A DNA stretch of 64,000 bases, taken from contig NZ_LR597503.1 of the NCBI RefSeq assembly GCF_902150035.1, positions 1 through 64,000 on the forward strand. The letters are read 5' to 3'. Of the stretch, positions 27,567-48,835 are shown piece by piece; positions within the stretch are counted from its first letter, which is position 1, and each line of letters starts with the position of its first letter. Origin of the DNA: Enorma burkinafasonensis (GTDB taxonomy: Bacteria; Actinomycetota; Coriobacteriia; Coriobacteriales; Coriobacteriaceae). The translations under genes were made by a program, and so were the position numbers. The notes beneath the pieces are model-generated. The model ran no database searches. It saw only the letters and a list, made by a program, of their open reading frames with translations, and was not told where the DNA came from.

Positions 27567-28439
27567 CTACCCGCGCTGGCCCCGCTGCTCCATCCAGGAA
27601 AGGGCCTGCCGGTAGACCTGCATGCCGGTCGCGTCGGTGACGTCGCGGTCGAAGTCATGCGGCAGGTAGTAGACGGTCTTCATGACGGCGTCGGGCGCGA
27701 GGCGCGCGAGCGTCTTCGAGATGCGCAGCGGCACGTCCTCGTCGCCGGAGCTCGCCGTCGCGAAGAGGGGAGGCAGCTGGGCGATGTCCTCGGCCGTGAG
27801 CGACCAGGCCTCGGGCGTGCGCTCGCTCGAGGCGCCGTCGAGGCCCATGAGGTCGAGCCAGGCCCCCTCGTGCTGGCGCGCGTAGACGTAGAGCCCGTAG
27901 CGCAGCGGCTTGGGGCCCGAGGTGGGCGGCTCGTCGCGCACCATCCCGGCGACGGTCGCCTGCGAGACCTCGGGCAGCGCGGCGTACGCCTTCGCGGGCT
28001 CGCGGAAGGCAGGGTCGGTGAGGTCGTAGTAGCCGTAGAAGCTCAGGATGCCAAGGGGCTGCGGCAGCGGGGCCTCGGCGGCGCGCCGGCGGATCTCCCG
28101 CGCGAGCACGAGCGCGAGGTACGCCCCTGCCGAGCGCCCGAAGAGGAAGTAGCCATCGAGCTCGCCTGTCTGGATGGGCCGCGCGATCGCGCCCTCCCAG
28201 CAGGAGAAGAGGGCCTCTGCCGTCTCGGGCAGCGCGGACTCGGGCGCGAGCGGGTAGTCGGCGCAGACGAGCGTGTAGCCGGCATCCGCGAACGCGCGCA
28301 CGTAGGGCGCGGGCAGATCGTCGCGCTCACCGTACACGAGGCCGCCGCCGTGCAGGTAGAACACGGCGATGCGCTGGTCCGCCTCCGCGCGGGGCGGGAC
28401 GACGGTCGTGAGCCCTGCGTTCGTGTCTGCCATGGCCAT
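27567..28439 (-). CDS. Alpha/beta-hydrolase (HSL/esterase type) coupled to pucR
   Basis: A 290-aa hydrolase of the hormone-sensitive-lipase-like alpha/beta fold. It has the oxyanion motif HGGG near residue 31, the nucleophile elbow GRSAG near 102, an Asp in SSGDEDVP and the final His in LPHDF. No signal peptide, so it is cytoplasmic. The ATG overlaps the stop of the upstream pucR-like gene (TGATG), implying coupled translation; an ATG two codons later is an alternative. Because it is tied to the regulator of the ureide cluster it may hydrolyse an ester or amide related to that pathway, but this is only context. The substrate is unknown. Confidence 0.8.
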   Translation of the reverse strand: MAMADTNAGLTTVVPPRAEADQRIAVFYLHGGGLVYGERDDLPAPYVRAFADAGYTLVCADYPLAPESALPETAEALFSCWEGAIARPIQTGELDGYFLFGRSAGAYLALVLAREIRRRAAEAPLPQPLGILSFYGYYDLTDPAFREPAKAYAALPEVSQATVAGMVRDEPPTSGPKPLRYGLYVYARQHEGAWLDLMGLDGASSERTPEAWSLTAEDIAQLPPLFATASSGDEDVPLRISKTLARLAPDAVMKTVYYLPHDFDRDVTDATGMQVYRQALSWMEQRGQRG

Positions 28440-30121
28440 CAGCCCTTCCTCAGGGTGTAGATCTTGTCCGCAAGGATGATCTGCAGGTAGTCGTTGGGGT
28501 CCTTGACGTTGATGCGGTAGACCTCGCGCGCGCGTTCCACGCGGTAGCGCACGGTCTTGGGGTGCAGGAACAGCTCCTCGGCGGTCTTGGGGTAGCTGAT
28601 GCCGTTCTCGCACAGGCGCACGAGCGTGTTGAACAGCTCGGGCTGCTCGTCGTGCATGCGCGTGAGGCGCGGGTCGATGAGCTTCTCCTGCTGGAGGTGG
28701 TCGTCGGAGCCGAGCAGCAGCTTGTAGATGCCTAGGTCGTCGAAGCGCATCGAGACGTCGCGGTAGCCCGAGTCGTCGAAGAGCCTGTAGGCGTTTATGA
28801 CGTCGTTGTTGATCTCGGGCAGCCGGTAGCGGTCGGTGGAGCTCGAGAGCACGGCGAAGTGCGTGAAGAGCGGCAGCGTGGACGACTCGTGCAGCTTGGT
28901 GAGGATGCGCTGCACCTCGTCGATGTCGATGCCCGAGAGCTCGCTGCGGTAGTTGTGCAGCACGAGCAGGCGGTCGCCGTTCACGTAGTAGACGATGCCC
29001 GGGTATGCCGAGCGCAGGCGGCGGCGGATGGCCTGGTGCAGCTCGTCCTGGCGGTCGGTGTCGCTCGGGTCGAGCAGCGTGGAGCGCACGAGCAGGACCT
29101 CGTAGAGCGGGAAGCGGTCGACGTTGAGCAGCGCGAGCGCCTCGTCGACGCGCTCCTCGGAGCCGAAGCGGCCGAGCAGCAGGTCGTGCACCGTGTTGTT
29201 GTTCTGGTAGAAGAGCTTCTGCTTGACGGCGTTCTGCTTCAGGATCTCGATCTGCAGCAGGCTCACGATGTTCTCGACGAGCATCGTGTCGACCTGCGAG
29301 AGCTCGGTGCCGTCGCTGTGGATGATGAGGTAGTAGTCCACCCCGTCCGAGCTGGGGATGCGGACGGCGAGCGCGTTCTCGACGCGGTCCGCGCCGTCGA
29401 GCATGTCGGGCACGGACGCGTCGGAGGCGGCCTCGTGGCCGCCCGCGTCGCCGTCTGCGTCCGCACTCTCGGAGGCGTCGCGGTAGAAGAGGCGCGCGTC
29501 GAAGTAAGCGTGCGTCTGGTAGGGGCTCGGGTCGCGCCGCGTTAAGGAGTAGCCCGTGAAGGCCGCCCGCGCGGGGTTGGTGCTGAGGCGCCGGTCCCGC
29601 TGCGTGTCGAGGTAGGTCGTGTCGGCCATGAGCGAGTTCTTGAGCGTGTTCAGGATGTAGGAGATCGACGGCTGCTTGAGCGCGAGCGTCATCACGTGGC
29701 GATGCGACTCGTAGAAGCGGTTGAGCAGCGTGAGGTTGGTGTCGAGCACGTGCCCGAGGACGTCCATGAGGATGGCCTCGTATTTGACCTGGGGCGAGAG
29801 GCGGATGAGCGGCAGGTCGAAGTCGTCGCAGAGCTCCACGATCTCGCGGGGGATCTCGTCGACGGCGCGGCCGGGCTTGATGGCGAGCGCGCCGATGCCG
29901 ATCGTGCTCATGGTGCGGAAGAACCTGCCGAGCCCCACGGCGTCGAGGTCCTCGAGGGCGAAGTAGCTCGAGATGATGAGCTGGTTGCGCCTGCCCCAGT
30001 TCTGGATGTCGGCGCCCTCGAGGATCATCGCGCTCTCGATCTCGTTGTCCAGATGGGACGAGCCGGCGACGACCTCCGAGCCCGCGAAGGAGGGCAGCGA
30101 GAGCATCTCCTTGACGTGCAT
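28439..30121 (-). CDS. PucR-family transcriptional regulator
   Basis: A 560-aa regulator. The N-terminal PucR/purine-catabolism domain begins MHVKEMLSLPSF and runs to about residue 130 (RNQLIISSYFAL, LPLIRLS). A middle GGDEF-like/CdaR-type region follows. The C-terminal PucR-type helix-turn-helix lies at about 500-555 (YPKTAEELFLHPKTVRYRVE). Bacillus PucR activates purine and ureide catabolism genes. Here the gene is divergent from the FdrA-YlbE cluster, which is the obvious target, and overlaps the hydrolase gene. Residues near 215-245 form an Asp/Ala-rich low-complexity insert. The start at 30121 is followed by a good fit to the family N-terminus. Confidence 0.88.
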   Translation of the reverse strand: MHVKEMLSLPSFAGSEVVAGSSHLDNEIESAMILEGADIQNWGRRNQLIISSYFALEDLDAVGLGRFFRTMSTIGIGALAIKPGRAVDEIPREIVELCDDFDLPLIRLSPQVKYEAILMDVLGHVLDTNLTLLNRFYESHRHVMTLALKQPSISYILNTLKNSLMADTTYLDTQRDRRLSTNPARAAFTGYSLTRRDPSPYQTHAYFDARLFYRDASESADADGDAGGHEAASDASVPDMLDGADRVENALAVRIPSSDGVDYYLIIHSDGTELSQVDTMLVENIVSLLQIEILKQNAVKQKLFYQNNNTVHDLLLGRFGSEERVDEALALLNVDRFPLYEVLLVRSTLLDPSDTDRQDELHQAIRRRLRSAYPGIVYYVNGDRLLVLHNYRSELSGIDIDEVQRILTKLHESSTLPLFTHFAVLSSSTDRYRLPEINNDVINAYRLFDDSGYRDVSMRFDDLGIYKLLLGSDDHLQQEKLIDPRLTRMHDEQPELFNTLVRLCENGISYPKTAEELFLHPKTVRYRVERAREVYRINVKDPNDYLQIILADKIYTLRKG

Positions 30122-30408: not shown

Positions 30409-33400
30409 ATGCTGCAAACGGTCATCAAGCCGAACTCGTATCAGGACTCCATCAACCTGATGCTGCTCACCAACAAGATCAACACCCTAGACGGTGTGAT
30501 CCAGAGCCAGATCATGATGGGTACCGACGCCAACAAGGATATCTACCGGGCCGCCGGCCTGCTCACCGATGAGGCCGCCGCGGCAAACCCGTCCGACATG
30601 GTCATCGTCGTCGAGAGCGACGACCCCGCCATCCTCGACACGGTGCTCGCCGAGACCGAGGCCTTCCTCGCGGACCTGTCCGTGAAGAAGGAAGCCGCCG
30701 GCGGTCCCGCCGAGGCCACGAGCTGGGAAGAGGCCATGGCCCAGCTGCCCGACGCCAACATGGCGCTGTTCTCGATCCCCGGCGAGTACGCCGCCCCCGA
30801 GCTCGAGCGCGCGCTCGATCTGGGCCTCAACGTGTTCTCCTTCACGGACAACGTGCCGCTGGAGGACGAGGTCCGTCTCAAGAAGAAGGCGCATGAGAAG
30901 GGCCTGCTCTTCATGGGTCCCGACTGCGGCACCGGCGTGGTGTCGAGCGTCCCCGTGGCGTTCACGAACGTCATCAACCCGGGCAACATCGGCATCGTCG
31001 GCGCCTCCGGCACCGGCATCCAGGAGGTCACCTGCATGATCGACCGCCTGGGTGGCGGCTGCGTGCACGCCATCGGCACCGGCGGCCGCGACCTCAACGA
31101 GAAGGTCGGCGCCGTGACCGTGAAGGACGCCATCGTCGCCCTCGAGAACCATGACGCGACCGACGTCATCTGCGTCATCTCCAAGCCGCCCGCGCCCGAG
31201 GTCCGCGACGAGGTCGTCGACCTGCTCGAGAAGTGCACCAAGCCCGTCGTGGCCATCTTCATCGGCGAGAAGCCCGAGGCGCACCAGGGAAAGGTCTACC
31301 TGGCCCACACGCTCGAGGAGACCGCCCGCATCGCGGTCGACCTCGCCAACGGCGCCGAGGTCAAGAAGAACTACCTCGAGCCGCTCGACTTCACCTGCGA
31401 CGAGCCGCTCCCCGAGGACAAGACCGTCATCGGCCTGTACTCCGGCGGCACGCTGGCCGGCGAGGCCGCGATGATGATCACCGAGGCGCTCAACCTCGGC
31501 TCCATCATCAAGGAGGACGGCTACATGCTGCGCCACGGCGGCTACGACGTCATCGACCTCGGTGACGACGTCTACACCCAGGGCCGTCCGCACCCCATGA
31601 TCGACCCGGACGTCCGCATCAAGATGATGCGCGACTACTGCGACATGGACACCACCGGCGTCATCGTGTTCGACTGCGTGCTCGGCTACGGCTGCCATCC
31701 CGACATGGCCTCCGCGCTCGCGCCGGTCATCGCCGAGTGCAAGGCCAAGGCCGAGGCAGACGGCCGCACCATCCAGTTCGTGGGCACCGTCGTGGGCACG
31801 AGCCACGACCCGCAGGACTACGAGCGCTCCATCAAGATCCTCGAGGACGCCGGTGCGCGCATGGAGCCCTCCAACGCCATGGCCGTCCGCGCCGCGCTCG
31901 AGTTCAAGGGCATCCACTTCACCGAGGAGGACCGCGAGGTCGTCCCCTACGAGGTCAAGGACGCCACGCCGCTGCCCGAGCCCTCCGAGGCCGTCATGGA
32001 GCTCCTCACCACGAAGCCGCGCGTCATCAACGTCGGCGTCGAGAGCTTCAACGACCCGCTGCGCGCCTACGGCGCCAAGAGCGTCCAGTACACCTGGAAG
32101 CCCATGGCCGGCGGTAACAAGCGCATGATCCACCTCCTCACCGAGCTCGCCAAGGTAGAGGGCATCGACGAGGCCAACGAGCGCATCTGCCAGCGCTTCA
32201 AGGAGAGCCAGCCGCAGCTCGTCGACGTCGTGGTCGCCAAGGACGTCATCCCCGAGCTCAACCGCGAGAAGAAGACCCTCCTGCATGCCGGTCCCCCGAT
32301 CACCTGGGAGAACATGCAGGGCCCCATGCGCGGTTCGTGCATCGGCGCGGCGCTCTTCGAGGGCTGGGCTGAGACCGAGGAGGACGCGGTCAAGATGCTC
32401 GAGGCCGGCGAGGTCGAGTTCATCCCCTGCCACCACTGCCACGCCGTGGGCCCCATGGGCGGCATCACCTCCGCCAACATGGCCGTGCTCAAGATCGTGA
32501 ACCTCGCTGACGGCACCACCGCCTACTGCACCATGAACGAGGGCATCGGCAAGGTCCTGCGCTTCGGCGCCTACAGCCAGGAGGTCGTCGACCGCCTGCA
32601 CTGGATGGCCGACGAGCTCGGCCCGGTGCTCTCCAAGGCGCTCAAGCTCTCCGACGGCGGCATCAATCTGAACGTGCTCATCGCGCGCGCCATCACCCAG
32701 GGCGACGAGTTCCACCAGCGCAACATGGCCGCCACGCTCAACTTCCTCAAGGAGGTCGCGCCGCTCATCGTCAAGACCGACGCCCCCGAGGACGCCAAGG
32801 AGCGCGTCATCCAGTTCCTGGCCGACACCGACCAGTTCTTCCTGAACATCATGATGGCCATGGGCAAGTCGATCGTGGACTACGTCCGCAAGGACGAGGA
32901 GGGCTGCGTCGTCTCCACCATGACCCGTAACGGCTACGAGTTCGGCGTGCGCGTCACCGGCCTCGGCGACCAGTGGTTCACCGCGCCCGTGAACACCCCG
33001 ATCGGCCTCTACTTCACCGGCTTCACCGCCGAGGACGGCTGCCCGGACAACGGCGACTCCGCGATCTGCGAGACCGTCGGCGTGGGCGGCATGGCCATGG
33101 TCGCGGCCCCCGGCGTCACCCGCTTCGTGGGTGCCGGCGGCTTCGAGGACGCCCTCAACATCTCCAACGAGATGGAGAAGATCTGCGTGGAGCACAACCC
33201 CAACTGGTCCATCCCCACGTGGGACTTCAAGGGCACGTGCCTCGGCATCGACATCCGCAAGGTCGTCGCCACGGGCATCACGCCGCTCATCAACACCGGC
33301 ATCGCCCATAAGAAGGCCGGCATCGGCCAGGTGGGCGCCGGCACCGTCCGTGCCCCGCTCGCCTGCTTCGAGCAGGCGCTCGAGGCCTACTGCGCCAAGC

Positions 33401-33414
33401 TCGGCATCGAGTAG
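30409..33414 (+). CDS. Single-chain FdrA-YlbE fusion, predicted oxamate carbamoyltransferase large subunit
   Basis: A 1001-aa cytoplasmic protein. Residues about 1-515 match FdrA, an acyl-CoA-synthetase-like protein (Rossmann domain with FMGPDCGTGVV and GIVGASGTGIQE, then a ligase-CoA-like domain with GLYSGGTLAGEA and CVLGYGCHPD). Residues about 520-1001 match YlbE/DUF1116 (AGPPITWENMQGPMRG, CHHCHAVGPMGG, AGIGQVGAGTVR). In E. coli these are separate proteins of about 555 and 420 aa that, with YlbF, have been assigned as oxamate carbamoyltransferase: oxalurate + phosphate to oxamate + carbamoyl phosphate. Here they are one chain, with YlbF encoded 18 bp downstream and carbamate kinases nearby. 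AGGAGG precedes the ATG. The family match is clear; the reaction is transferred from the E. coli assignment. Confidence 0.88.
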   Translation: MLQTVIKPNSYQDSINLMLLTNKINTLDGVIQSQIMMGTDANKDIYRAAGLLTDEAAAANPSDMVIVVESDDPAILDTVLAETEAFLADLSVKKEAAGGPAEATSWEEAMAQLPDANMALFSIPGEYAAPELERALDLGLNVFSFTDNVPLEDEVRLKKKAHEKGLLFMGPDCGTGVVSSVPVAFTNVINPGNIGIVGASGTGIQEVTCMIDRLGGGCVHAIGTGGRDLNEKVGAVTVKDAIVALENHDATDVICVISKPPAPEVRDEVVDLLEKCTKPVVAIFIGEKPEAHQGKVYLAHTLEETARIAVDLANGAEVKKNYLEPLDFTCDEPLPEDKTVIGLYSGGTLAGEAAMMITEALNLGSIIKEDGYMLRHGGYDVIDLGDDVYTQGRPHPMIDPDVRIKMMRDYCDMDTTGVIVFDCVLGYGCHPDMASALAPVIAECKAKAEADGRTIQFVGTVVGTSHDPQDYERSIKILEDAGARMEPSNAMAVRAALEFKGIHFTEEDREVVPYEVKDATPLPEPSEAVMELLTTKPRVINVGVESFNDPLRAYGAKSVQYTWKPMAGGNKRMIHLLTELAKVEGIDEANERICQRFKESQPQLVDVVVAKDVIPELNREKKTLLHAGPPITWENMQGPMRGSCIGAALFEGWAETEEDAVKMLEAGEVEFIPCHHCHAVGPMGGITSANMAVLKIVNLADGTTAYCTMNEGIGKVLRFGAYSQEVVDRLHWMADELGPVLSKALKLSDGGINLNVLIARAITQGDEFHQRNMAATLNFLKEVAPLIVKTDAPEDAKERVIQFLADTDQFFLNIMMAMGKSIVDYVRKDEEGCVVSTMTRNGYEFGVRVTGLGDQWFTAPVNTPIGLYFTGFTAEDGCPDNGDSAICETVGVGGMAMVAAPGVTRFVGAGGFEDALNISNEMEKICVEHNPNWSIPTWDFKGTCLGIDIRKVVATGITPLINTGIAHKKAGIGQVGAGTVRAPLACFEQALEAYCAKLGIE

Positions 33415-33432
33415 CGCGCAAGGCAGGCAACC

Positions 33433-34314
33433 ATGAACGTCTCCTCCGCCAGCGATTATGCGCTCCAGCTTCTGGGCGACGCGGCCCAGGGCCGGGTGCA
33501 CAGCGTGTTCGGCACGAGCTTCAACGTTGAGCTCGCCGGCGAGCTCGTGCACGTGGGCCCGGACGACCAGCCGCTCTCGTGCCTGGGCGTCGCGATCGCG
33601 GCGGGGGAGATGCCCTGCGTCCTGCGCGCCATCGAGGCGGGCGACGCGGTCGCATGGGACGGGGCGCGCCTCGTCATCCAGACGGCGTCGCGTCCGGTCT
33701 CGCTCCTCATCGCGGGAGCCCCGGTGGCGCACCTGTCCGTCCCGCGCATCGAGGGCGCGCCCGTCGGGCTCGACGCCGCGAGCGCCGCGGCGGTCGCGAG
33801 CCTGGATCTCGCCGAGCGCATCGGGCTGCCGTGGTTCGGCGAGGAGCGCTCGGTCGTGGCGCTCACCAGCCTCGCGCGCTTCTCCTCGATGTGCCTGGCG
33901 CGCGAGCTCGGCGAGCGGAACCCCCTTCGGGAGGAATCCGCCACGCGCGCGATGCGCTCGGCCGTCGAGTACCTGGTGGGGCGGGGCCTCGGCCTCACGC
34001 CGTCGGGGGACGACGTGCTTTGCGGCTACGGCTGCGGCCTCAGGCTCCTCTACGGGGGCTCGGGGCTCGCGCAGACGTTCTTCACCGCCGTCGCGGAGGT
34101 CTATCCCGGGAAGACCACCGCGGTCAGCGAGGCGTATCTCAAGGCCATCTGCGCCGGGTACGCCAACGCCGACTACATCGATCTGTGCGCGACCCTGCGC
34201 GCAGGCGAGGTGGCGATGCTGCCCGCCCGGCTCTCCCGCGTGCTCGAGGTCGGGCACACCTCGGGTGCGGACGGGCTTCTCGGGTTCGCTGCAGCGTTCT
34301 GCTGCCTTATCTAA
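33433..34314 (+). CDS. YlbF/AllH-like DUF2877 protein, predicted oxamate carbamoyltransferase subunit
   Basis: A 293-aa protein of the DUF2877 family. It carries the signature GLGLTPSGDDVLCGYG near residues 188-203 and a second conserved TSGAD near its end. In E. coli the homologue YlbF works with FdrA and YlbE in the allantoin regulon. The gene follows the FdrA-YlbE fusion by 18 bp, so all three parts of the predicted enzyme are made from one transcript. No signal peptide or membrane segment is seen. The final residues (FAAAFCCLI) are hydrophobic but too short to call a membrane anchor. Confidence 0.85.
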   Translation: MNVSSASDYALQLLGDAAQGRVHSVFGTSFNVELAGELVHVGPDDQPLSCLGVAIAAGEMPCVLRAIEAGDAVAWDGARLVIQTASRPVSLLIAGAPVAHLSVPRIEGAPVGLDAASAAAVASLDLAERIGLPWFGEERSVVALTSLARFSSMCLARELGERNPLREESATRAMRSAVEYLVGRGLGLTPSGDDVLCGYGCGLRLLYGGSGLAQTFFTAVAEVYPGKTTAVSEAYLKAICAGYANADYIDLCATLRAGEVAMLPARLSRVLEVGHTSGADGLLGFAAAFCCLI

Positions 34315-38396: not shown

Positions 38397-38431
38397 ACGC
38401 GGCGTAAGAGACGAAAGAGAAGGTGAATAAC

Positions 38432-39796
38432 ATGGGAGTGAGCATCAAACGCATTCTCAAAGGCATCGCGCTCGCTTTGCCCCTCTTCTTGGCTACGGCG
38501 GTTCCCGCCTTCGCCGATGAGGCGTCTGGTATGGCACCGGCACCTGAGGGTGCCATGGCATTTGTGGTCATCATCCCGCTCGTGGTGATTATCGCGCTGC
38601 TCATCATGAAGGTGGATATGTTGATTGCCGGTCTTGCCGGCGGCGCGCTCGCTATGGTCATAGGCGGTATTGGCATCGCCGACCTGCAGGCGCAGCTGCT
38701 GGAGACGGTTCCCAGCATGCTTTCGAATACCGCTCCCATCATCAACTCCGCTGTGGCGACCGCCGTGTTCAAGTCGGGCGGCTACATGGCGGCTCTCATG
38801 CTCGTGCGCCGCGCGGTTGGCGAGCGTACGTGGATTATGGCGGCGTTCATCGTGCTGCTGCAGTCTGCGGCTACATACATGTCGGGCATTGGCGGCGGCT
38901 CAGCCATGGTTATTGCCCCGCTCGCCTTCGCTGCGCTCGGTGCCATCCCCGAGTTGATCGCGGGCATGTGCGTCGCTACGGCAGTGTGCTTCACCACCTC
39001 GCCCGCCTCGCTCGAAACGAGCATGCTTACGCAGTTCACGGGTGCCTCGGTGAATGAATACGTCGACACGATTCGCATCATCACCCTGCTCTTCGTGGCT
39101 GTTGGCGTCGGCATCGCGGTCTTTGGCGCCATCAGGCGCAAGGCCGTCTTCGTAGGTGCCGAGGACGAGGAGTTCAAGGACATGACGACCGCCGACCTGG
39201 TGCGTACCATGATTCCGGCCGTGTTTTTGCTCTTCGCGGTAATCGGCGGCCCGTTCATCAATAGCGCCGTGGGCATGCCGGTGCTCGGAACCGCCGCCTA
39301 TATGATTATCACCGTGGCGCTCATCGGCATGTGCACGAAATTCACGTTCAACGAGAGCTGCCAGGCGTTCATCGATGGGTCGTCCTATATCTTGACGCGC
39401 TTGCTCGGCGTCGCCGTGTTCCTGGCCTTCATCAACGTCATCCGCGATACGGGGGCCTTCACATCCATCGTGAACGTCGCGCAGACGGCTCCCGCGTTCT
39501 TGCTCGTACCCGCCATGATCCTTGCGGGCTTCCTCATCGGCTTCCCTGCTGGCGCCTACGTAGGCTCCATCCTTGCGCTCATCCTGCCCATCGCCGTTTC
39601 TTTGGGTTTCTCGCTCTTCGAGGTTGGTCTTGTGACCATTGGCGTTGGCTTCGGCAGTCAGATAGCGTACGTGAACATCACCATGCAGGCGATGTCCTCC
39701 GGCTTCCAGATTCCTATCGACAAGGTTGTTAAGGGCAACTTGCCATGGGTTGCCGCGTCGCTTGCCGTGTTGCTGGTCCTTGGCTTCGTGCTGTAA
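38432..39796 (+). CDS. Ion-transporter-superfamily-like permease
   Basis: A 454-aa membrane protein with an apparent N-terminal signal-like helix (LALPLFLATAVPAFA) and about 11 further hydrophobic segments. Two similar halves and re-entrant Gly/Ser-rich loops (SGIGGGSAMV, TTSPASLETSM, GFPAGAYVGS) recall the DcuC/GntP/CitM-type ion transporter superfamily, but I cannot name a family. It is paired with the amidohydrolase gene 63 bp downstream, like the codB-codA arrangement, so it may import that enzyme's substrate. Codon choice (more TTG, GCT, GTT) is less GC-biased than in its neighbours. A GTG at 38423 is an alternative start. Confidence 0.7.
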   Translation: MGVSIKRILKGIALALPLFLATAVPAFADEASGMAPAPEGAMAFVVIIPLVVIIALLIMKVDMLIAGLAGGALAMVIGGIGIADLQAQLLETVPSMLSNTAPIINSAVATAVFKSGGYMAALMLVRRAVGERTWIMAAFIVLLQSAATYMSGIGGGSAMVIAPLAFAALGAIPELIAGMCVATAVCFTTSPASLETSMLTQFTGASVNEYVDTIRIITLLFVAVGVGIAVFGAIRRKAVFVGAEDEEFKDMTTADLVRTMIPAVFLLFAVIGGPFINSAVGMPVLGTAAYMIITVALIGMCTKFTFNESCQAFIDGSSYILTRLLGVAVFLAFINVIRDTGAFTSIVNVAQTAPAFLLVPAMILAGFLIGFPAGAYVGSILALILPIAVSLGFSLFEVGLVTIGVGFGSQIAYVNITMQAMSSGFQIPIDKVVKGNLPWVAASLAVLLVLGFVL

Positions 39797-39859
39797 GCGG
39801 AGCTTGGTATCAGCCGTCTTTGTAGGGAGATTATCCATATCGTGCAAAGGAGTGGGTCA

Positions 39860-41089
39860 ATGGACATGGAGCTTCTTATTACTAACGCTGCGGTTCCGGG
39901 ATATGACGGCTTGGTCGACGTCGCCGTTGCAGGCGACCGCATCGCCGCAGTGGGAACCGGGCTCGCGTGCGATGCGGCGCGCATCATCGATGCCGAGGGG
40001 CGCGTGCTCATTCCCTCGCTCGTCGACAGCCACATTCACCTCGATAAGGCCTACATCATGGATCGCCTGCCCAACAAATCGGGCACGCTCCAGGAGGCAA
40101 TCGCGGTGACGGCGCAGCTCAAACCGACGTTCACTAAGGAAGACGTGGTGGAGCGCGCGACGCGCGCCATGAAGACGCTGCTGCGCTACGGTACCACCTA
40201 TATCCGCACGCACGCAGAGTTCGACCCTGCGCAGGGCTTCACCGGGTTCGAGACGGTGCTCGAGATGCGCGAGAAGTATCGCGACCTCATGGACATCCAG
40301 GTTGTCGCTTTCCCGCAGGAGGGCATTTTCAAATGTCCGGGTGTGGAGCAGATGATGGTCGAGGCAATGGAGATGGGTGCTGACGTGGTTGGTGCCATTC
40401 CATACAATGATACGCCCGTCGACAAACACCTCGACTTCGTCTTTGACTTGGCGAAGAAGTATGACAAGCCGCTCGACTTCCATCAGGATTTCAAGGACGA
40501 CGCCGACAACATCACCATCGAGGAGATTTGCGACCGCACGATTGCCGAGGGGATGCAAGGCCGCGTGTCGGTGGGGCACCTCACGGCTTTGGGCGCGCTG
40601 CCGGACGCCGAGCTTGAGGCCATCATGCGTAAGATGGCGGACGCGCAGATCAGCGTCATGTGCTTGCCCATGACTGACCAGCATCTGGGCGGCCGCAATG
40701 ACGCCTACAATGTGCGCCGCGCCGTGACGCCCGTTCGCAAACTACGTGACGCGGGTGTGAACGTGTGCTTCGCCACAAACAATATCCGCAACGCCTTTAC
40801 GCCGTATGGCACCGGGGACCTGTTCCAAGTTGCCATGCTGGGCATTCCCGTGTGTCACTTGGGCGGTGCCGACGATCTGCCGACCGTTCTGCCCATGATG
40901 ACCGAGAACCCGGCGCGGGCCATCGGCCTCGAGGGTTACGGAATTGCGGAGGGCAACAAGGCCGATATGGTTCTGCTCGACACCACATCTGTGCAGACTG
41001 CTGTCATCGACCTGCCCGAGCGCCTCTACGTGATCAAGAACGGCAAGGTCATCGTCGAGACTCATACACAGATCGAGACCTCCTTCTAG
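39860..41089 (+). CDS. Cytosine-deaminase-like amidohydrolase
   Basis: A 409-aa metal-dependent hydrolase of the CodA/AtzC branch of the amidohydrolase superfamily. Metal and catalytic residues are visible in order: SHIHLDKA (HxH), HAEFD, FHQDFKDD, VGHLTALG and a late NN/Asp segment (CFATNNIRN) where CodA has CFGHDD. That last change, Asn for the His-Asp pair, suggests a substrate other than cytosine. Possible substrates are a cyclic ureide, amine-substituted triazine or creatinine-like compound; none can be chosen from sequence. The ATG at 39860 lies 8 bases after AAAGGAG. Like the permease before it, it is lower in GC than the flanking genes. Confidence 0.8.
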   Translation: MDMELLITNAAVPGYDGLVDVAVAGDRIAAVGTGLACDAARIIDAEGRVLIPSLVDSHIHLDKAYIMDRLPNKSGTLQEAIAVTAQLKPTFTKEDVVERATRAMKTLLRYGTTYIRTHAEFDPAQGFTGFETVLEMREKYRDLMDIQVVAFPQEGIFKCPGVEQMMVEAMEMGADVVGAIPYNDTPVDKHLDFVFDLAKKYDKPLDFHQDFKDDADNITIEEICDRTIAEGMQGRVSVGHLTALGALPDAELEAIMRKMADAQISVMCLPMTDQHLGGRNDAYNVRRAVTPVRKLRDAGVNVCFATNNIRNAFTPYGTGDLFQVAMLGIPVCHLGGADDLPTVLPMMTENPARAIGLEGYGIAEGNKADMVLLDTTSVQTAVIDLPERLYVIKNGKVIVETHTQIETSF

Positions 41090-41149: not shown

Positions 41150-42112
41150 ATGTCCAAGCCTCTTGGCAAGCCCGAGCGCATCGTCGTCGCGCTGGGCGGC
41201 AACGCTCTCGGCAACACGCCCGAGGAGCAGATCGAGAAGGTGGGCAACGCCGCCCACGCGCTGCTCGGCCTCATCGAGCAGGGCAACGAGATCATCATCA
41301 CCCACGGCAACGGCCCGCAGGTCGGCATGATCCAGAATGCCTTCGCGGCCGCCCACGACGCCATCGGCACGCCGGCTATGGACCTGCCCGAGTGCGGCGC
41401 CATGAGCCAGGGCTACATCGGCTACCACTTGCAGCAAGGCCTCGGCCGTGAGCTGCACAAGCGCTACAAGCGTTGGCACGTCGCCTCCGTGGTAACCCAG
41501 ATCGAGGTCGACCCCGATGACCCGAGCTTCCAGAACCCCACGAAGCCCATCGGCCCCTTCTACACCGAGGAACAGGCCAAGGAGATTATGGCCGAGGACC
41601 CGTCCAAGGTCTTCGTGGACGACTCAGGCCGCGGCTGGCGTCGCGTCGTCGCCTCGCCCGATCCCAAGAAGATCGTCGAGGCTCCGAGTATCCTGAACCT
41701 GCTCGACAACGAGTTCATCGTCATCGCCTGCGGTGGCGGCGGCATCCCGGTCGTGCGCGACTACAATAACAAGGGCTGCTACAAGGGCGTTGCGGCCGTC
41801 ATCGACAAGGATGCCGGCGGCGAGCTGCTCGCCGAGGACTGCGACGCCGACGTGCTGTTCCTGCTCACCGCCGTGGAGCATGTGGCCATCAACTTCGGCA
41901 AGCCCGACCAGCAGGAGCTGACCGACATCACCGCCGACGAGGCCGAGCGCCTCGCCGACGAGGGCCAGTTCGGCAAGGGCTCCATGGAGCCCAAGGTCCG
42001 CGCCGCGATCAAGTTCGCGCGCAGCCGCAAGGGCCGTACCTGCATCATCGGCGCCCTCGACAAGGCAGCCGAGACCATGGCCGGTCTGTCGGGCACCCGC
42101 ATCCACATGTAG
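41150..42112 (+). CDS. arcC: Carbamate kinase, first copy
   Basis: A 320-aa carbamate kinase, which turns carbamoyl phosphate + ADP into ATP + carbamate (then NH3 + CO2). Signatures are VALGGNALG at the N-terminus, THGNGPQVG, ECGAMSQGYIGY, SGRGWRRVVASP, IACGGGGIPVV, VIDKD, LLTAVEHV and the final MEPKVRAA and GTRI. In this cluster the carbamoyl phosphate should come from the predicted oxamate carbamoyltransferase, so this is the ATP-forming step. RBS AGAAAGGA precedes the ATG. A second copy, with about 36 of 320 residues different, lies 1.5 kb downstream. A strong hairpin follows the gene. Confidence 0.96.
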   Translation: MSKPLGKPERIVVALGGNALGNTPEEQIEKVGNAAHALLGLIEQGNEIIITHGNGPQVGMIQNAFAAAHDAIGTPAMDLPECGAMSQGYIGYHLQQGLGRELHKRYKRWHVASVVTQIEVDPDDPSFQNPTKPIGPFYTEEQAKEIMAEDPSKVFVDDSGRGWRRVVASPDPKKIVEAPSILNLLDNEFIVIACGGGGIPVVRDYNNKGCYKGVAAVIDKDAGGELLAEDCDADVLFLLTAVEHVAINFGKPDQQELTDITADEAERLADEGQFGKGSMEPKVRAAIKFARSRKGRTCIIGALDKAAETMAGLSGTRIHM

Positions 42113-42206: not shown

Positions 42207-42285
42207 TCGTAGGCGGGCCGGCCGGCTCCTGCACGACGGCCCGCACATGCCTCGCTCCAGCTACGACATCAGGAGGGTGGTCCCT

Positions 42286-43254
42286 ATGACCAAGAAGATC
42301 GTGATTCTCGATGCGTGGGCGACGGTGCCCGGCGACATCTCGTGGGAGCCGATTGCCGAGATGGGGGACCTGACCATCTACGACCGCACCCCGCCCGAGC
42401 TCATCGCCGAGCGCATCGGCGATGCGGAGATCGTCATCTCGAGCAAGGTGGTCATCGGCCGCGACGTGTTCGAGCGCTGCCCCAACCTGGAGTACATCGG
42501 CCTGCTCTCCACGGGCTACAACGTGATCGATATCGAGGCGGCGCGCGAGCACGGTATCTCGGTGTGCAACGTGCCCGGCTACAGCACCATGGCGGTCGCT
42601 CAGATGGCCATGGCGCTCCTGCTCGAGATCACCAACATGGTCGGCATGCACGCCCAGGCGGTGAACGAGGGAAAATGGGTCGAGAGCCCCGATTGGTGCT
42701 TCTGGCTCAAGGACCATATCGAGCTGCTCGACAAGACCATGGGCATCATCGGGTTCGGTTCCATCGGGCAGGCGGCGGGAAAGATGGCCAACGCCTTCGG
42801 GATGAGGGTCATAGGCCAGAGCCGCCACGCGCATCCCGAGCTCGAGGACGAGATGACCCGTACCACCACCGACGTCGAGGAGGTCTTCCGCGCATCCGAC
42901 GTGATCCTCGTCTCGGCGCCGCTGAACGACGACAGCCGCGACATCATCCGCAAGGAGAACATCGACAAGATGAAGGACGGCGTGATCGTCATCAACATCG
43001 CGCGCCCGGGGCATGTCGTCGAGCAGGACGTGGTCGATGCCCTCGAGAGCGGCAAGATGCGCGGGTTCGGCGCGGACGCGTCCTACACCGAGTGGACCGA
43101 CGACCACACGGTGCTCGAGGGGGTCGAGAACTGCTACCTCACCCCGCATATCGCCTGGTGCCCCTTCGAGACCCGCCAGCGCATGATCGACATCGTGTGC
43201 GACAACCTGCGCCACTACCTCGACGGCGACCGCATCAACTGCGTGAACCCGTAG
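42286..43254 (+). CDS. D-2-hydroxyacid dehydrogenase (glycerate/hydroxypyruvate type)
   Basis: A 322-aa NAD(H)-dependent dehydrogenase. The dinucleotide fold has GFGSIGQAAGKMA near residue 155. The catalytic Arg is in NIARPGHVVE and the catalytic His in LTPHIAWCP, with a Trp at the position typical of glycerate/glyoxylate-type members. AGGAGG lies before the ATG at 42286. It sits between the two carbamate kinase copies. Inference: it could reoxidise the NADH made by the AllD-like enzyme by reducing glyoxylate, hydroxypyruvate or tartronate semialdehyde-type acids, which would balance an anaerobic ureide pathway. Substrate is not decidable from sequence. Confidence 0.88.
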   Translation: MTKKIVILDAWATVPGDISWEPIAEMGDLTIYDRTPPELIAERIGDAEIVISSKVVIGRDVFERCPNLEYIGLLSTGYNVIDIEAAREHGISVCNVPGYSTMAVAQMAMALLLEITNMVGMHAQAVNEGKWVESPDWCFWLKDHIELLDKTMGIIGFGSIGQAAGKMANAFGMRVIGQSRHAHPELEDEMTRTTTDVEEVFRASDVILVSAPLNDDSRDIIRKENIDKMKDGVIVINIARPGHVVEQDVVDALESGKMRGFGADASYTEWTDDHTVLEGVENCYLTPHIAWCPFETRQRMIDIVCDNLRHYLDGDRINCVNP

Positions 43255-43576
43255 GGTAGCGCCGGCCGCGAGCGCCGCGACCGTGCATGAAAGAACCCCA
43301 CTATGCATAAAGTTGGCTCTGAGGGAAGTTCCATGCATCTAGGGGCGAAAGGGGCCGAATTTGATGCGAACGCGATGGTTTTATAGGCCATACCTTGGGG
43401 TTAAAGAAAAATCCATACGTGCTTACGCTGAGCGGCGAGAACATACCGCTCACCCGATTGCTAGCGCAATTCGAGTTGAGAAATGAATAAAAACGCGAAC
43501 TTGGAGCATATAATCTCAGACCTACCCGCTCGAGCGCGGGTTGTTTGGCAGCTGGTATCGAAGGAAGGGAACGAAT
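43255..43576 (+). other. AT-richer gap before the second carbamate kinase
   Basis: 322 bp without a credible gene. It has three ATGCAT-type words (43288-43340), a possible -10 box TATAAT at 43509-43514, and a short ACCCGC/GCGGGT hairpin near 43524-43541 just before the ribosome-binding site. It suggests that the second kinase has its own promoter. Confidence 0.4.
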
Positions 43577-44539
43577 ATGTCCAAGCCCATCGGCAAGCCC
43601 GACCGCATCGTGGTCGCCCTCGGCGGCAACGCCCTCGGCAACACGCCCGAGGAGCAGATCGAGCGCGTCAACAACACCGCCAAGGCGCTCCTGGGCCTCA
43701 TCGAGCAGGGTAACGAGATCATCATCACCCACGGCAACGGCCCGCAGGTCGGCATGATCCAGAACGCCTTCGCCGCCGCCCATGAGGCCATCGGCACCCC
43801 GGCCATGGACCTGCCCGAGTGCGGCGCCATGAGCCAGGGCTACATCGGCTACCACCTGCAGCAGGGCATCGGTCGCGAGATGCACCGCCGCTACAAGCGC
43901 TGGCATGCCGCCACGGTCGTCACCCAGATCGAGTGCGATCCGGACGACCCCGCGTTCCAGAACCCCACGAAGCCCATCGGCCCGTTCCTCACCAAGGAGC
44001 AGGCTGACGCCCAGAAGGCCGAGCATCCCGAGATGACCTTCGTCGAGGACTCCGGCCGCGGCTGGCGCCGTGTGGTCGCCTCGCCCGAGCCCAAGAAGAT
44101 CGTCGAGGCCGACTCGATCCTGAACCTGCTCGACAACGAGTTCATCGTCATCGCCTGCGGTGGCGGCGGCATCCCGGTCGTCCGCGACTACAACGACAAG
44201 GGCTGCTACAAGGGCGTCGCGGCCGTCATCGACAAGGACCTGGGCGGCGAGCTTCTGGCCGAGGACTGCGATGCGGACGTGCTGTTCCTGCTCACCGCCG
44301 TGGAGCACGTTGCCATCAACTTCGGCAAGCCCGACCAGAAGGAGCTCGAGGAGCTCACCGCCGACGAGGCCGAGCGCCTCGCCGACGAGGGCCAGTTCGG
44401 CAAGGGCTCCATGGAGCCGAAGGTCCGCGCGGCCATCAAGTTCGCGCGCAGCCGCAAGGGCCGTATGTGCATCATCGGCGCCCTCGACAAGGCCGCTGAG
44501 ACCATGGCCGGTCTGTCCGGCACGCGCATCTACGCGTAG
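43577..44539 (+). CDS. arcC: Carbamate kinase, second copy
   Basis: A 320-aa paralogue of the kinase at 41150-42112, identical at about 89% of positions with no gaps. All catalytic segments (VALGGNALG, HGNGPQVG, SGRGWRRVV, CGGGGIPVVRDYN) are unchanged. Differences cluster at residues about 136-158 (the FLTKEQADAQKAEHPEM stretch), a surface loop of the lid region. It has its own leader and terminator. It may serve the DDAH/arginine side of the region or allow higher dosage; sequence does not decide. AAGGAAGGG precedes the ATG at 43577. Confidence 0.96.
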   Translation: MSKPIGKPDRIVVALGGNALGNTPEEQIERVNNTAKALLGLIEQGNEIIITHGNGPQVGMIQNAFAAAHEAIGTPAMDLPECGAMSQGYIGYHLQQGIGREMHRRYKRWHAATVVTQIECDPDDPAFQNPTKPIGPFLTKEQADAQKAEHPEMTFVEDSGRGWRRVVASPEPKKIVEADSILNLLDNEFIVIACGGGGIPVVRDYNDKGCYKGVAAVIDKDLGGELLAEDCDADVLFLLTAVEHVAINFGKPDQKELEELTADEAERLADEGQFGKGSMEPKVRAAIKFARSRKGRMCIIGALDKAAETMAGLSGTRIYA

Positions 44540-45583: not shown

Positions 45584-46234
45584 CTACCAGACCGTGAACT
45601 GGGCGTTCTCGGTGTTCCAGTGGATGTCGCGGATGTAGTCACGCACCGCGGCGGCGTCGCGCGCCTCGAAGAGCTCGAGGATGCGGCGGTGCTCGTCGTT
45701 CGCCTTGCGCAGCAGCCGGTAGGCCTCCTCGCGGTCCACGGTGCTGTAGTCGCGCTTGATGAAGCAGCGTTCCAGCTGGCGGAGGAGCTCTATCAGGCGC
45801 TGGTTCCCGCAGAGGTGGTAGTAGGTGTAGTGGAACTCGCGCTGCAGGTCGTCGTACTTGAGCATGAGGCGGCTCTCGATGGCGAGGTCCATCGATCCCA
45901 CGAGGAAGCGCATCTGCGCGACGGTGTCGTCGTCGAGTCTCGGGCAGGCGAGATAGGCCGCCTGGCCGTCGAGGGGCCCCATGATCTCGAAGACCTCGAG
46001 AGCGTTCTCGCGGTCGAACCCGCGCACGCGGAAGCCGCGGCGGGGGAGGTTGTCGAGGTAGCCGTCGCTCGCGAGCTGGATGAGCGCCTCGCGCACGGGG
46101 GTGCGCGAGACCCCCATGGCGTCGCAGATCGCCTGCTCGCTCACGCGGTCGCCGGCGGAGAGCTCGCCCGAGTCGATGCGGCCGGCGATGTAGGCGTAGA
46201 CGTTGTCCTTGAGCGAGCTGTGCGGTGCGCCCAT
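45584..46234 (-). CDS. GntR-family (FCD) regulator of the DDAH/antiporter genes
   Basis: A 216-aa regulator. The N-terminal winged helix (VSEQAICDAMGVSRTPVREA near residues 29-48) is the GntR motif, and the helical FCD effector domain fills the rest, with the metal/ligand residues expected (REFHYTYYH, EHRRILELF). The start at 46234 has GGAGG just before; the open frame extends upstream without a better site. It is divergent from the DDAH gene. Two copies of TTGTAT-N5-ATACAA lie upstream of the DDAH and antiporter genes and fit known FadR/FCD-type operators, so it probably represses both until an arginine-like effector binds. Confidence 0.88.
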   Translation of the reverse strand: MGAPHSSLKDNVYAYIAGRIDSGELSAGDRVSEQAICDAMGVSRTPVREALIQLASDGYLDNLPRRGFRVRGFDRENALEVFEIMGPLDGQAAYLACPRLDDDTVAQMRFLVGSMDLAIESRLMLKYDDLQREFHYTYYHLCGNQRLIELLRQLERCFIKRDYSTVDREEAYRLLRKANDEHRRILELFEARDAAAVRDYIRDIHWNTENAQFTVW

Positions 46235-46391
46235 GCGGGCCTCCTTCACGGATGGGAATGCCGCGGCGCGTATACCGCACGCAACCCGTGGTCGAACGAT
46301 GCCGCCCACAGTATATCAAGGCCGGGGAGCGGCCATATCGCACCGGCTGCGATTTAGCGAAACGCTCACCGACGTTTAGCTACCGTTCAGA

Positions 46392-46408
46392 TTGTATACA
46401 ATATACAA
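46392..46408. promoter_or_regulatory. GntR-type operator upstream of the DDAH gene
   Basis: TTGTAT-ACAAT-ATACAA is a perfect inverted repeat with 6-bp arms, extending to 7 bp here (TTGTATA/TATACAA). It sits in the divergent gntR-DDAH region, 80 bp before the DDAH start, and matches the site at 47315-47331. Confidence 0.75.
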
Positions 46409-46488
46409 CTGAGAAGCGGAGCCATAGGATGAGGGTGTCGAAAGGGGATGGAGGTCATCCCCGCACCGAGCTTTGGAGGTTCGATCCC

Positions 46489-47265
46489 ATGACCAAGTTC
46501 AGCCACGTCATCATCCGCCGCCCCGGCAAGTCGCTCAGCAACGGCATCACGAGCGCCCCCGAGCTCGGCCAGCCCATCTACGAGCGCGCCATCGAGGAGC
46601 ACTACGACTACGAGCACGCCCTCGAGCAGTGCGGCGTCGACGTGACGGTGCTCCCCGCCCTCGAGCAGTACCCCGACAGCTGCTTCGTCGAGGACCCGGC
46701 TGTCATCACCCGCTGCGGCGCCATCATCACCAACCCCGGCGCCGCGAGCCGCAACGGCGAGAAGGACGAGATCGAGCCGGTCATCCGCCGCTTCTTCGAT
46801 GACGAGCACGTCAAGCACATCGAGGCCCCCGGCACGCTCGACGGCGGCGACGTCATGATGGTCGGCGACCACTTCTACGTCGGCCGCTCGGCCCGCACCA
46901 ACGAGGAGGGCATCCGCCAGTTCTGCGAGATCCTCGCCGGCTGGGGCCTCGAGGGCTCCGAGGTCCCGCTGGAGGAGGTCCTGCACCTCAAGACCGGCGT
47001 GAACTACATCGAGAACAACAACATGCTCGTCTCGGGCGAGTTCATCGACAAGCCCGACTTCGCCCAGTACAACAAGATCGTCGTGCCCGAGGAGGAGGCC
47101 TACGGCGCGAACTGCATCTGGGTCAACGACACCGTGATCGTGGCCGAGGGCTACCCGACCGTCCTGAAGGCGGTCCAGGATCTGGGCTACAAGACGCTCG
47201 TGGTCGACACCTCCGAGTACCGCAAGGTCGACGGCGGCCTCTCCTGCCTGTCGCTGCGTTTCTAG
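46489..47265 (+). CDS. NG,NG-dimethylarginine dimethylaminohydrolase (DDAH)
   Basis: A 258-aa amidinotransferase-fold hydrolase. It aligns block by block with Pseudomonas DDAH: MTKFSHVIIRRPGKSL, YPDSCFVEDPAV (substrate-binding Asp and Glu), GAASRNGE, EAPGTLDGGDVMMVGDHFYV, SARTNEEG, VLHLKTGVNY (catalytic His) and the end DGGLSCLSLRF (nucleophilic Cys). At the third catalytic position it has Asp (LDGGD), as in human DDAH1, where the Pseudomonas enzyme has Glu. The expected reaction is ADMA or monomethylarginine + water to citrulline + dimethylamine or methylamine. TTGGAGG precedes the ATG at 46489. The longer frame upstream covers the operator and is rejected. Arginine deiminases are about 400 aa, so that name does not fit. 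Confidence 0.92.
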   Translation: MTKFSHVIIRRPGKSLSNGITSAPELGQPIYERAIEEHYDYEHALEQCGVDVTVLPALEQYPDSCFVEDPAVITRCGAIITNPGAASRNGEKDEIEPVIRRFFDDEHVKHIEAPGTLDGGDVMMVGDHFYVGRSARTNEEGIRQFCEILAGWGLEGSEVPLEEVLHLKTGVNYIENNNMLVSGEFIDKPDFAQYNKIVVPEEEAYGANCIWVNDTVIVAEGYPTVLKAVQDLGYKTLVVDTSEYRKVDGGLSCLSLRF

Positions 47266-47280
47266 CGCTCCCCGTCCGCG

Positions 47281-47316
47281 AGGGCCGGTGCACCGGAAAG
47301 CCGGTCACCGGCCCTT
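47281..47316 (+). terminator. Terminator between the DDAH and antiporter genes
   Basis: AGGGCCGGTG (47281-47290) pairs exactly with CACCGGCCCT (47306-47315) and inner CCGG/CCGG pairing is possible. Its last base is the first base of the second GntR operator. Confidence 0.7.
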
Positions 47317-47331
47317 GTATTCTGTATACAA
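47315..47331. promoter_or_regulatory. GntR-type operator upstream of the antiporter gene
   Basis: TTGTAT-TCTGT-ATACAA has the same 6-bp arms and 5-bp spacing as the site at 46392-46408 but a different spacer. It lies 23 bp before the antiporter start codon, close enough to block initiation. Confidence 0.75.
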
Positions 47332-47353
47332 CCTGTAAGAGATAGGAGTGATC

Positions 47354-48835
47354 ATGGCTCAAGAGAGGGATAGCGCCGCGAGCGTGGGCGCCGACGGCAT
47401 CATCGACCCCGAGGGCCTCGACCTCTTCCGCCTTACCATGATGGTGATCACCGCGAGCATCTGCGGCGGCATCTTCTCGCTGGCCGGCGACATGGCCGCC
47501 GGCGGCGCCAACTCCGGTGCGGTCATCGTGTCGTGGGCGATCTGCTTCATCGGCGTGTTCGCGCTCATGATGGTGTTCAACGGGCTCTCGCAGGCGCGGC
47601 CCAAGCTCACCGGCGGCATCTACGCCTACGCCGCCGCGGGCTTCGGCGACTACGTGGGCTTCAACTCGGCGTGGGGCTACTGGATCAGCGCGTGCCTGTC
47701 CAACGTGAGCTTCGCGCTTCTGCTGTTCAGCGCGCTCGGCTACTTCTTCCCGGCGTTCGAGGCCGGCAACAACGTGCTCTCGATCGTGTGCGCGAGCATT
47801 TTCCTGTGGGTGCTCACCTTCCTGGTGACGCGCGGCGTGAAGGAGGCGGCGGGCATCAACGTCATCGTGACGCTCGCCAAGCTCGTCCCGCTCGGCCTGT
47901 TCGTGCTGTCCATCATCCTTCTGGGCAAGTTCGACGCCGCCATCTTCATGGACAACTTCTGGGGCGAGCCCGGGGGTCCGAGCTTCGGCGACCAGGTGGT
48001 CTCGACGATGATCGCGCTCGTGTGGGTGTTCACCGGCATCGAGGGCGCCGTGGTGATCTCGGGCCGCGCGAAGTACGTGAAGGACGTCGGCCGCGCGACG
48101 GCGCTCGGGTTCATCGCCGTGTTCGTACTGTACCTCCTCATCTCGCTGCTCTCGCTCGGCATCATGCCGCGCGCCGAGATGGCCGAGCTCGCGACGCCCT
48201 CCATGGCGGGCATCCTGGAGCACGCCATCGGGCCCGTGGGCGCCGCGGTGGTGAACCTCGGCGTGATCCTGTCGCTCGTGGGAGCTATGCTCGGCTACGT
48301 CATCATCGCCGCCGAGACGCCCTTCGAGGCCGCGCGCCAGGGCACGTTCCCGCTCGCGTTCGCGAAGACCAACGAGCAGGGCGCCCCCATCGTGACCGTG
48401 CTGGTGAGCTCGGGCATCACCCAGCTCTTCCTCATCCTCTCGGTGATCGCGGCGAGCACCTACCAGTTCTTCTACACCTGCGCGGTCAACACGATCCTGA
48501 TCCCGTACGTGTGCTCGGCCGCCTACTACATGGTCATCGGCTGGAAGAACGAGGGGCTCGACGGCCCGCGCGCCCCCAAGCTCTGGGTCGCGCGGCTCTT
48601 CGGCACCCTGGGCTTCATCTACACCATCTTCCTGGTGTGGTCGACCGGGCTGCAGGGCGTCATGATCACGACCATCCTCTTCGCCCCGGCCATCGTGGTG
48701 TACGCCCTCGGCGAGCGCGGCCGCGGCAAGCCGGTGCTGCCGCTCGCGCACGACAAGGTCATCGCCGCCGTCGTGGTCGTCGTCGCGATCATCTCCCTCT
48801 ACCTGCACTTCACGGGTATCGCGCCCATCGTGTAG
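47354..48835 (+). CDS. APC-family amino acid antiporter (arginine/ornithine type)
   Basis: A 493-aa, 12-13-helix transporter of the basic amino acid/polyamine antiporter group. It has the unwound first-helix motif (TASICGGIFSLAGDMA), GGIYAYAAAGFG and FTGIEGAVVISGRAK, which are seen in ArcD/YdgI-type arginine-ornithine exchangers. Regulated with the DDAH gene, it may bring in arginine or methylated arginines in exchange for citrulline or ornithine. Specificity is inferred. The ATG at 47354 follows TAGGAG; a GTG two codons earlier overlaps that site. A stem (GGCACCCG/CGGGTGCC) follows the stop. Confidence 0.88.
   Translation: MAQERDSAASVGADGIIDPEGLDLFRLTMMVITASICGGIFSLAGDMAAGGANSGAVIVSWAICFIGVFALMMVFNGLSQARPKLTGGIYAYAAAGFGDYVGFNSAWGYWISACLSNVSFALLLFSALGYFFPAFEAGNNVLSIVCASIFLWVLTFLVTRGVKEAAGINVIVTLAKLVPLGLFVLSIILLGKFDAAIFMDNFWGEPGGPSFGDQVVSTMIALVWVFTGIEGAVVISGRAKYVKDVGRATALGFIAVFVLYLLISLLSLGIMPRAEMAELATPSMAGILEHAIGPVGAAVVNLGVILSLVGAMLGYVIIAAETPFEAARQGTFPLAFAKTNEQGAPIVTVLVSSGITQLFLILSVIAASTYQFFYTCAVNTILIPYVCSAAYYMVIGWKNEGLDGPRAPKLWVARLFGTLGFIYTIFLVWSTGLQGVMITTILFAPAIVVYALGERGRGKPVLPLAHDKVIAAVVVVVAIISLYLHFTGIAPIV

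Follow-up and report, generated by a model that had tools for sequence, protein, structure and literature searches.

A single-chain AllF-AllG variant of oxamic transcarbamylase in Enorma burkinafasonensis, of widespread occurrence and probably fermenting imported ureidoglycolate or oxalurate

In the first 64,000 nucleotides of contig NZ_LR597503.1 of Enorma burkinafasonensis (RefSeq assembly GCF_902150035.1), the whole of which we call the window, a single gene encodes AllF (FdrA) and AllG (YlbE), two of the three subunits of oxamic transcarbamylase (OXTCase), and is followed directly by the gene for the third, AllH (YlbF). With AllF and AllG in one chain, the gene is a variant architecture of OXTCase and not a plain member of the family, and together with AllH the fused enzyme is a two-chain enzyme. 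Comparison with relatives indicates that the fusion is a widespread variant that arose in one ancient event. We consider it probable that this variant ferments imported ureidoglycolate or oxalurate for ATP, and that the oxalurate is not derived from allantoin. The parts of the enzyme are encoded as follows.

30409..33414, + strand: AllF-AllG fusion open reading frame (ORF); ATG start, 1001 codons plus stop, a good ribosome-binding site (AGGAGG) just upstream
30409..31986, + strand: AllF (FdrA) part, residues 1-526; NF004760, E. coli AllF, PDB 3dmy
31987..32157, + strand: joint segment, residues ~527-583 (~57 residues); AllF C-terminus in E. coli, AllG N-terminus in paralogues, separate ORF in locus L022
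32158..33414, + strand: AllG (YlbE, DUF1116) part, residues 584-1001 and the stop codon; PF06545, E. coli AllG, PDB 3clq
33433..34314, + strand: AllH (YlbF, DUF2877), 293 residues; PF11392, 82 bits against a cut-off of 25; starts 18 base pairs (bp) after the fusion stop

Because an antisense ORF of 1703 codons overlaps the same stretch of this GC-rich DNA, the length of the frame proves nothing by itself, and it is homology that carries the claim. By BLASTP, residues 1-580 of the fusion align with residues 1-554 (of 555) of E. coli AllF (37.8% identity, 4.6e-119), and residues 586-1000 with residues 5-418 (of 419) of E. coli AllG (58.3% identity, 4.2e-177). Searches with hidden Markov models give 649 bits for the FdrA model NF004760 (cut-off 433) and 287 bits for Pfam AllG (PF06545, cut-off 27). 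The initial annotation, which had described one 1001-codon frame covering all of FdrA and YlbE with YlbF 18 bp downstream, was thus correct on both counts. Only five residues separate the two alignments, which means that the fusion contains no added linker; in E. coli K-12 the allF stop codon lies about 10 bp from the next start, with a ribosome-binding site in between.

Both halves are matched by solved structures in sequence and fold: PDB 3clq over residues 581-999 (Z 55.6) and PDB 3dmy over residues 99-567 (Z 39, yet with an overall root mean square deviation of 19 Å). These structures, of an Enterococcus faecalis AllG-like protein and of E. coli FdrA respectively, are of separate chains, unlike the single chain of the window, and we found no experimental structure of a joined AllF-AllG pair. 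The AlphaFold2 single-chain model of the fusion has a predicted local distance difference test score (pLDDT) of 87 and a predicted template modelling score (pTM) of 0.73. The window protein keeps every one of the 170 alignment columns with family-wide conservation of 98% or more, with E. coli agreeing at 162 and differing at 8, and it departs from no column conserved at 95% or more. A test for membership of the aspartate and ornithine transcarbamylase families found no Pfam match to an ornithine-transcarbamylase-type domain in the fusion or in AllH. Since both halves are full length in one chain, AllF and AllG stand at 1:1 in the window protein; of the earlier suggestion that the two parts work in 1:1 contact, the ratio is fixed by the architecture, while working contact is a suggestion that the joint segment supports.

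AllFGH was shown in 2024, with purified E. coli protein, to be oxamic transcarbamylase, made of three separate chains from three genes, in a study that left the subunit ratio open (PMC11326118). The initial annotation was right that the E. coli proteins are separate; its wording that they are 'assigned' as oxamate carbamoyltransferase is outdated, the activity having been shown (PMC11326118). No mention of the fusion was found in the open-licence PubMed Central literature searched, nor in PMC11326118 or PMC12625717. The E. coli system and that of the window are alike in their full-length halves (38% and 58% identity), in the AllH gene next to them, in a carbamate kinase in the operon and in the 162 of 170 near-invariant residues. 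They differ in that E. coli AllF and AllG are separate genes within the allantoin regulon, together with AllC, AllD and AllE, whereas the window has one gene, a PucR-type regulator and SDF symporters, without AllB, AllC or AllE. Current Pfam domain names are AllG and AllH; the NCBIfam name of the first part, 'acyl-CoA synthetase FdrA', is misleading because the phosphohistidine loop of SucD, the succinyl-CoA synthetase alpha chain, is not conserved.

In AllH, the motifs GRGxGLTPSGDD and GHTSGxD are invariant or nearly so among 57 homologues, and TTxxS is also kept. Its AlphaFold2 model (pLDDT 94.7, pTM 0.93) has no match in the PDB at E <= 0.001, the best VIA-align Z being 4.8, which is not proof of a new fold; without a match to a solved structure, the role of AllH cannot be read from known folds.

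The joint segment between the two halves changes its attachment from one group of relatives to another. It closes AllF in E. coli and Shouchella as well as in the allantoin operons of Bacilli, while AllF in distant paralogues (Elusimicrobia, archaea, other Coriobacteriia and other Bacilli) ends earlier, around residue 490-507, and the joint segment opens AllG. In locus L022 (1041-1260) it is a free-standing ORF of 60 codons with its own ribosome-binding site, located between AllF and AllG. Its motif, VxNxGxxxF...W/F-x-P-x-AGG, is recognisable in nearly all the relatives compared. Since the segment is never missing but may belong to either partner, the best explanation is that it lies where AllF and AllG meet; from these comparisons, we hypothesize that it most likely forms a bridge between the two folds, and it may be located at an active site that they share. 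The numbering of PDB 3clq begins at 57, which suggests that an N-terminal joint segment is missing from the solved chain.

To place the window gene among its relatives, one genome of each species was scanned with the window protein as the seed, a choice that favours close relatives. The scan returned 77 loci from other genomes, comprising 65 uninterrupted single ORFs, 2 interrupted copies (L094 and L101, which we take for sequence gaps or errors), 2 copies cut by contig ends and 8 split genes. Unbiased draws of genomes were added to offset the seeding bias: 19 of 30 AllG genes were fused among 398 genomes of the window's class, Coriobacteriia, and 3 of 42 among 399 genomes of the class to which Enterococcus casseliflavus belongs. 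The nearest named relative is Collinsella massiliensis (97% identity); an uncultured Coriobacteriaceae genome comes next at 95%, and Enorma massiliensis after it at 94%. An assembly artefact or frameshift accident is ruled out, as the same uninterrupted ORF occurs in many independent genomes; a fusion unique to the window's lineage is likewise ruled out, by the 65 of 77 relatives and by the class draws.

In a maximum likelihood tree of 95 AllG cores (IQ-TREE, LG+C20), all 52 fused rows and one stand-alone AllG (L044b) form one clade with bootstrap and Shimodaira-Hasegawa-like approximate likelihood ratio support of 100/100. Fused and split states require a single change on this tree, and several independent fusions are not needed. 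Outside the clade, its closest relatives are E. coli-type split genes; the event would have been a single in-frame joining of an E. coli-type AllF, with the joint segment at its C-terminus, onto AllG. Members come from Coriobacteriia, Bacillota, Chloroflexota and a Leptotrichiaceae (Fusobacteriota) genome, a taxonomic spread that suggests horizontal transfer. The stand-alone sequence, a second AllG of an Olsenella (L044:16352-17782, 66% identity), has a long branch inside the fused clade, lies near a contig end and is perhaps a secondary split.

Fused and split copies are found in different settings. Fused copies mostly belong to a module of PucR, AllH, carbamate kinase and a dicarboxylate symporter without allantoin genes, and split copies to allantoin operons. 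Among 60 fused loci, a divergent PucR gene is present in 59, AllH in 58, an SDF symporter gene within 10 kb in 48, carbamate kinase in 43, AllD in 24 and any of AllB, AllC or AllE in 7. With two more fused loci the tally becomes 8/62 for allantoin genes and 49/62 for the SDF symporter, against 18/20 and 0/20, respectively, for split loci of the E. coli type (Fisher p ~1e-10, a guide only and not a true probability, as the genomes are related). The two kinds coexist in at least four genomes of Enterococcus, those of E. casseliflavus, E. termitis, E. phoeniculicola and Enterococcus sp. JM4C. There the split genes belong to an allC-allE-allD-allF-allG operon, and a separate operon, PucR-FG-carbamate kinase, holds the fused gene together with an SDF symporter or a transporter-amidohydrolase pair. 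Complete split and fused OXTCase systems are present in E. casseliflavus (L169/L170) and E. termitis (L173/L174), a natural pair for comparing substrates.

The allantoin regulon setting that the initial annotation had carried over from E. coli was not borne out. Family searches of the window's genome, which is 99.96% complete, found no match to AllC or AllE, and the best match to AllB reached 220 bits, below the cut-off of 358, and may be another cyclic amidohydrolase. A search of the other 41 genomes with fused copies found no AllC-like protein above ~30 bits in 22 and one of at least 550 bits in 11. That annotation was right in outline and wrong about the setting of the enzyme, and it missed the widespread and single-origin nature of the fusion.

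Around the fusion, the window carries the following genes.

28439..30121, - strand: PucR-family regulator, 560 residues, divergent from the operon; PF07905 and PF13556
34321..35610, + strand: sodium:dicarboxylate symporter (SDF/DAACS) 1, candidate importer; PF00375, 286 bits
35821..37158, + strand: sodium:dicarboxylate symporter (SDF/DAACS) 2; PF00375, 287 bits
37258..38310, + strand: AllD, ureidoglycolate dehydrogenase, 350 residues; TIGR03175, 525 bits against a cut-off of 496
38423..39796, + strand: predicted membrane transporter, paired with an amidohydrolase; no Pfam or NCBIfam family match
39842..41089, + strand: cytosine-deaminase-like amidohydrolase with neither the deaminase Glu nor the metal-site Asp
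41150..42112, + strand: carbamate kinase 1; TIGR00746, 363.7 bits against a cut-off of 358
43574..44539, + strand: carbamate kinase 2; TIGR00746, 364.8 bits against a cut-off of 358

From these genes a short route to ATP can be proposed. The two SDF symporters would take up ureidoglycolate or oxalurate; AllD, assigned to its family above the cut-off, would oxidise ureidoglycolate to oxalurate; the fused AllFG with AllH, on the strength of the proven E. coli homologues, would convert oxalurate and phosphate reversibly to oxamate and carbamoyl phosphate; and carbamate kinase, by its family assignment, would turn carbamoyl phosphate into ATP, CO2 and ammonia. The activity and substrate of the fused form, the role of the importers and the position of the joint segment are all read here from homology and gene context. 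Stand-alone allFGHK genes without upstream allantoin genes were reported in ammonia oxidisers in 2025, with oxalurate proposed to come from other organisms (PMC12625717). That system resembles the window in combining OXTCase and carbamate kinase without the upstream genes and differs in having biuret and triuret hydrolases, where the window has SDF symporters and AllD (PMC12625717).

The neighbourhood has several further features. The predicted transporter also adjoins the amidohydrolase in L052, L067, L070, L077, L104 and L172, and the pairing recurs in Enterococcus, Streptococcus, Desemzia and Cytobacillus. In every member of the amidohydrolase subfamily seen (16 + 2 genomes), the deaminase Glu (HCDE) is replaced by Phe (HQDF) and a metal-site Asp (DD) by Asn (NN); some of these genomes also have CodA-like paralogues, which retain HCDE and DD, and the CodA-like loci L133-L138 show intact motifs in the same alignment. 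In four lactobacilli the amidohydrolase adjoins the fused OXTCase at loci that have no AllD. The two carbamate kinases are closely similar and lie within 2.5 kb; between them is a D-2-hydroxyacid dehydrogenase (42283-43254), related copies of which occur near fused OXTCase in L044 and L076. Adjoining the second kinase, a GntR regulator, a dimethylargininase-like protein and an arginine/ornithine-type antiporter (45584-48835) possibly form with it a second ATP-yielding route, from methylated arginine.

A number of observations weigh against the proposed fermentation of imported ureidoglycolate or oxalurate. SDF symporters normally carry dicarboxylates, and oxalurate and ureidoglycolate are monocarboxylates. 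Of 42 genomes with fused copies, 18 are without an AllD above the cut-off, which leaves oxalurate itself, or something else, as the substrate there. The amidohydrolase has no explained role in the route. AllH varies much more than AllF and AllG, with 25-69% identity among relatives, so that exchange with E. coli AllH cannot be assumed. Finally, activity of the fused form is predicted from the E. coli homologue and not from any fused protein.

The dicarboxylate preference of the SDF families also favours the chief alternative, in which the fused clade would be a paralogous carbamoyltransferase for another imported ureido acid, for example an N-carbamoyl dicarboxylate, with only some members serving oxalurate; the symporter would import the substrate, the fused enzyme would make carbamoyl phosphate and carbamate kinase would make ATP. 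This explanation would suit the 28 of 60 fused loci that have no AllD, AllC or amidohydrolase and consist just of PucR, AllH and, mostly, the SDF symporter and carbamate kinase, and it would expect different jobs for the split and fused copies kept side by side in the four Enterococcus genomes. We consider it unlikely, however, given the 162 of 170 near-invariant residues common to the E. coli OXTCase, the bona fide AllD in 24 of 42 fused genomes, that of the window included, and the fused copies within complete or near-complete allantoin operons. Such copies, at L049, L051, L053, L061, L064 and L172 (in Collinsella phocaeensis, C. vaginalis, Olsenella profusa, Tetragenococcus and an Enterococcus) and also at L209, link the fused form to the oxalurate step and argue that at least these act on oxalurate. 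We give slightly more credit, while still holding it doubtful, to the combined proposal that the fused clade is a separately evolved carbamoyltransferase in a module that imports a ureide, cleaves it and gains ATP, its substrate not being allantoin-derived oxalurate, and that the joint segment is a functional element of a shared active site, carried now by one subunit, now by the other, or encoded separately.

Two further explanations concern the identity of the enzyme and the source of its substrate. That the organism degrades allantoin by diverged enzymes missed by the family models would agree with its retention of AllD and OXTCase and with the distant relationship of the amidohydrolase to cyclic amidohydrolases; we find this quite improbable, as AllC and AllE are without any match in a nearly complete genome, the best AllB match is far below the cut-off, and AllC is likewise missing from close relatives whose copies are fused. 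An acyl-CoA synthetase (NDP-forming), as the NCBIfam name and the CoA-ligase Pfam domains would have it, has next to no chance of being correct. The chain does match Pfam CoA_binding and Ligase_CoA, and AllF residues 13-313 share Rossmann-type folds with SucD (Z 19). However, the phosphohistidine loop of E. coli SucD is unaligned in E. coli AllF and is represented by only a short stretch in the window protein, no ATP-grasp Pfam match is present in the chain (partner genes elsewhere were not searched), and the E. coli homologue catalyses another reaction, that of OXTCase (PMC11326118). Lacking a conserved phosphohistidine loop and an ATP-grasp partner domain in the chain, this identity is largely refuted and we reject it.

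OXTCase was an orphan activity for about sixty years, and it is a transcarbamylase unlike any other. The fusion settles AllF:AllG at 1:1, a point of weight given that the E. coli work did not fix the ratio of the subunits, and it cuts the problem of assembly to two chains; the subunit-switching joint segment points to the most likely meeting place of AllF and AllG. Gene context also predicts which family of transporters would carry oxalurate or ureidoglycolate, and with it a way in which gut Coriobacteriia, enterococci and lactobacilli may gain ATP from the purine waste of others.

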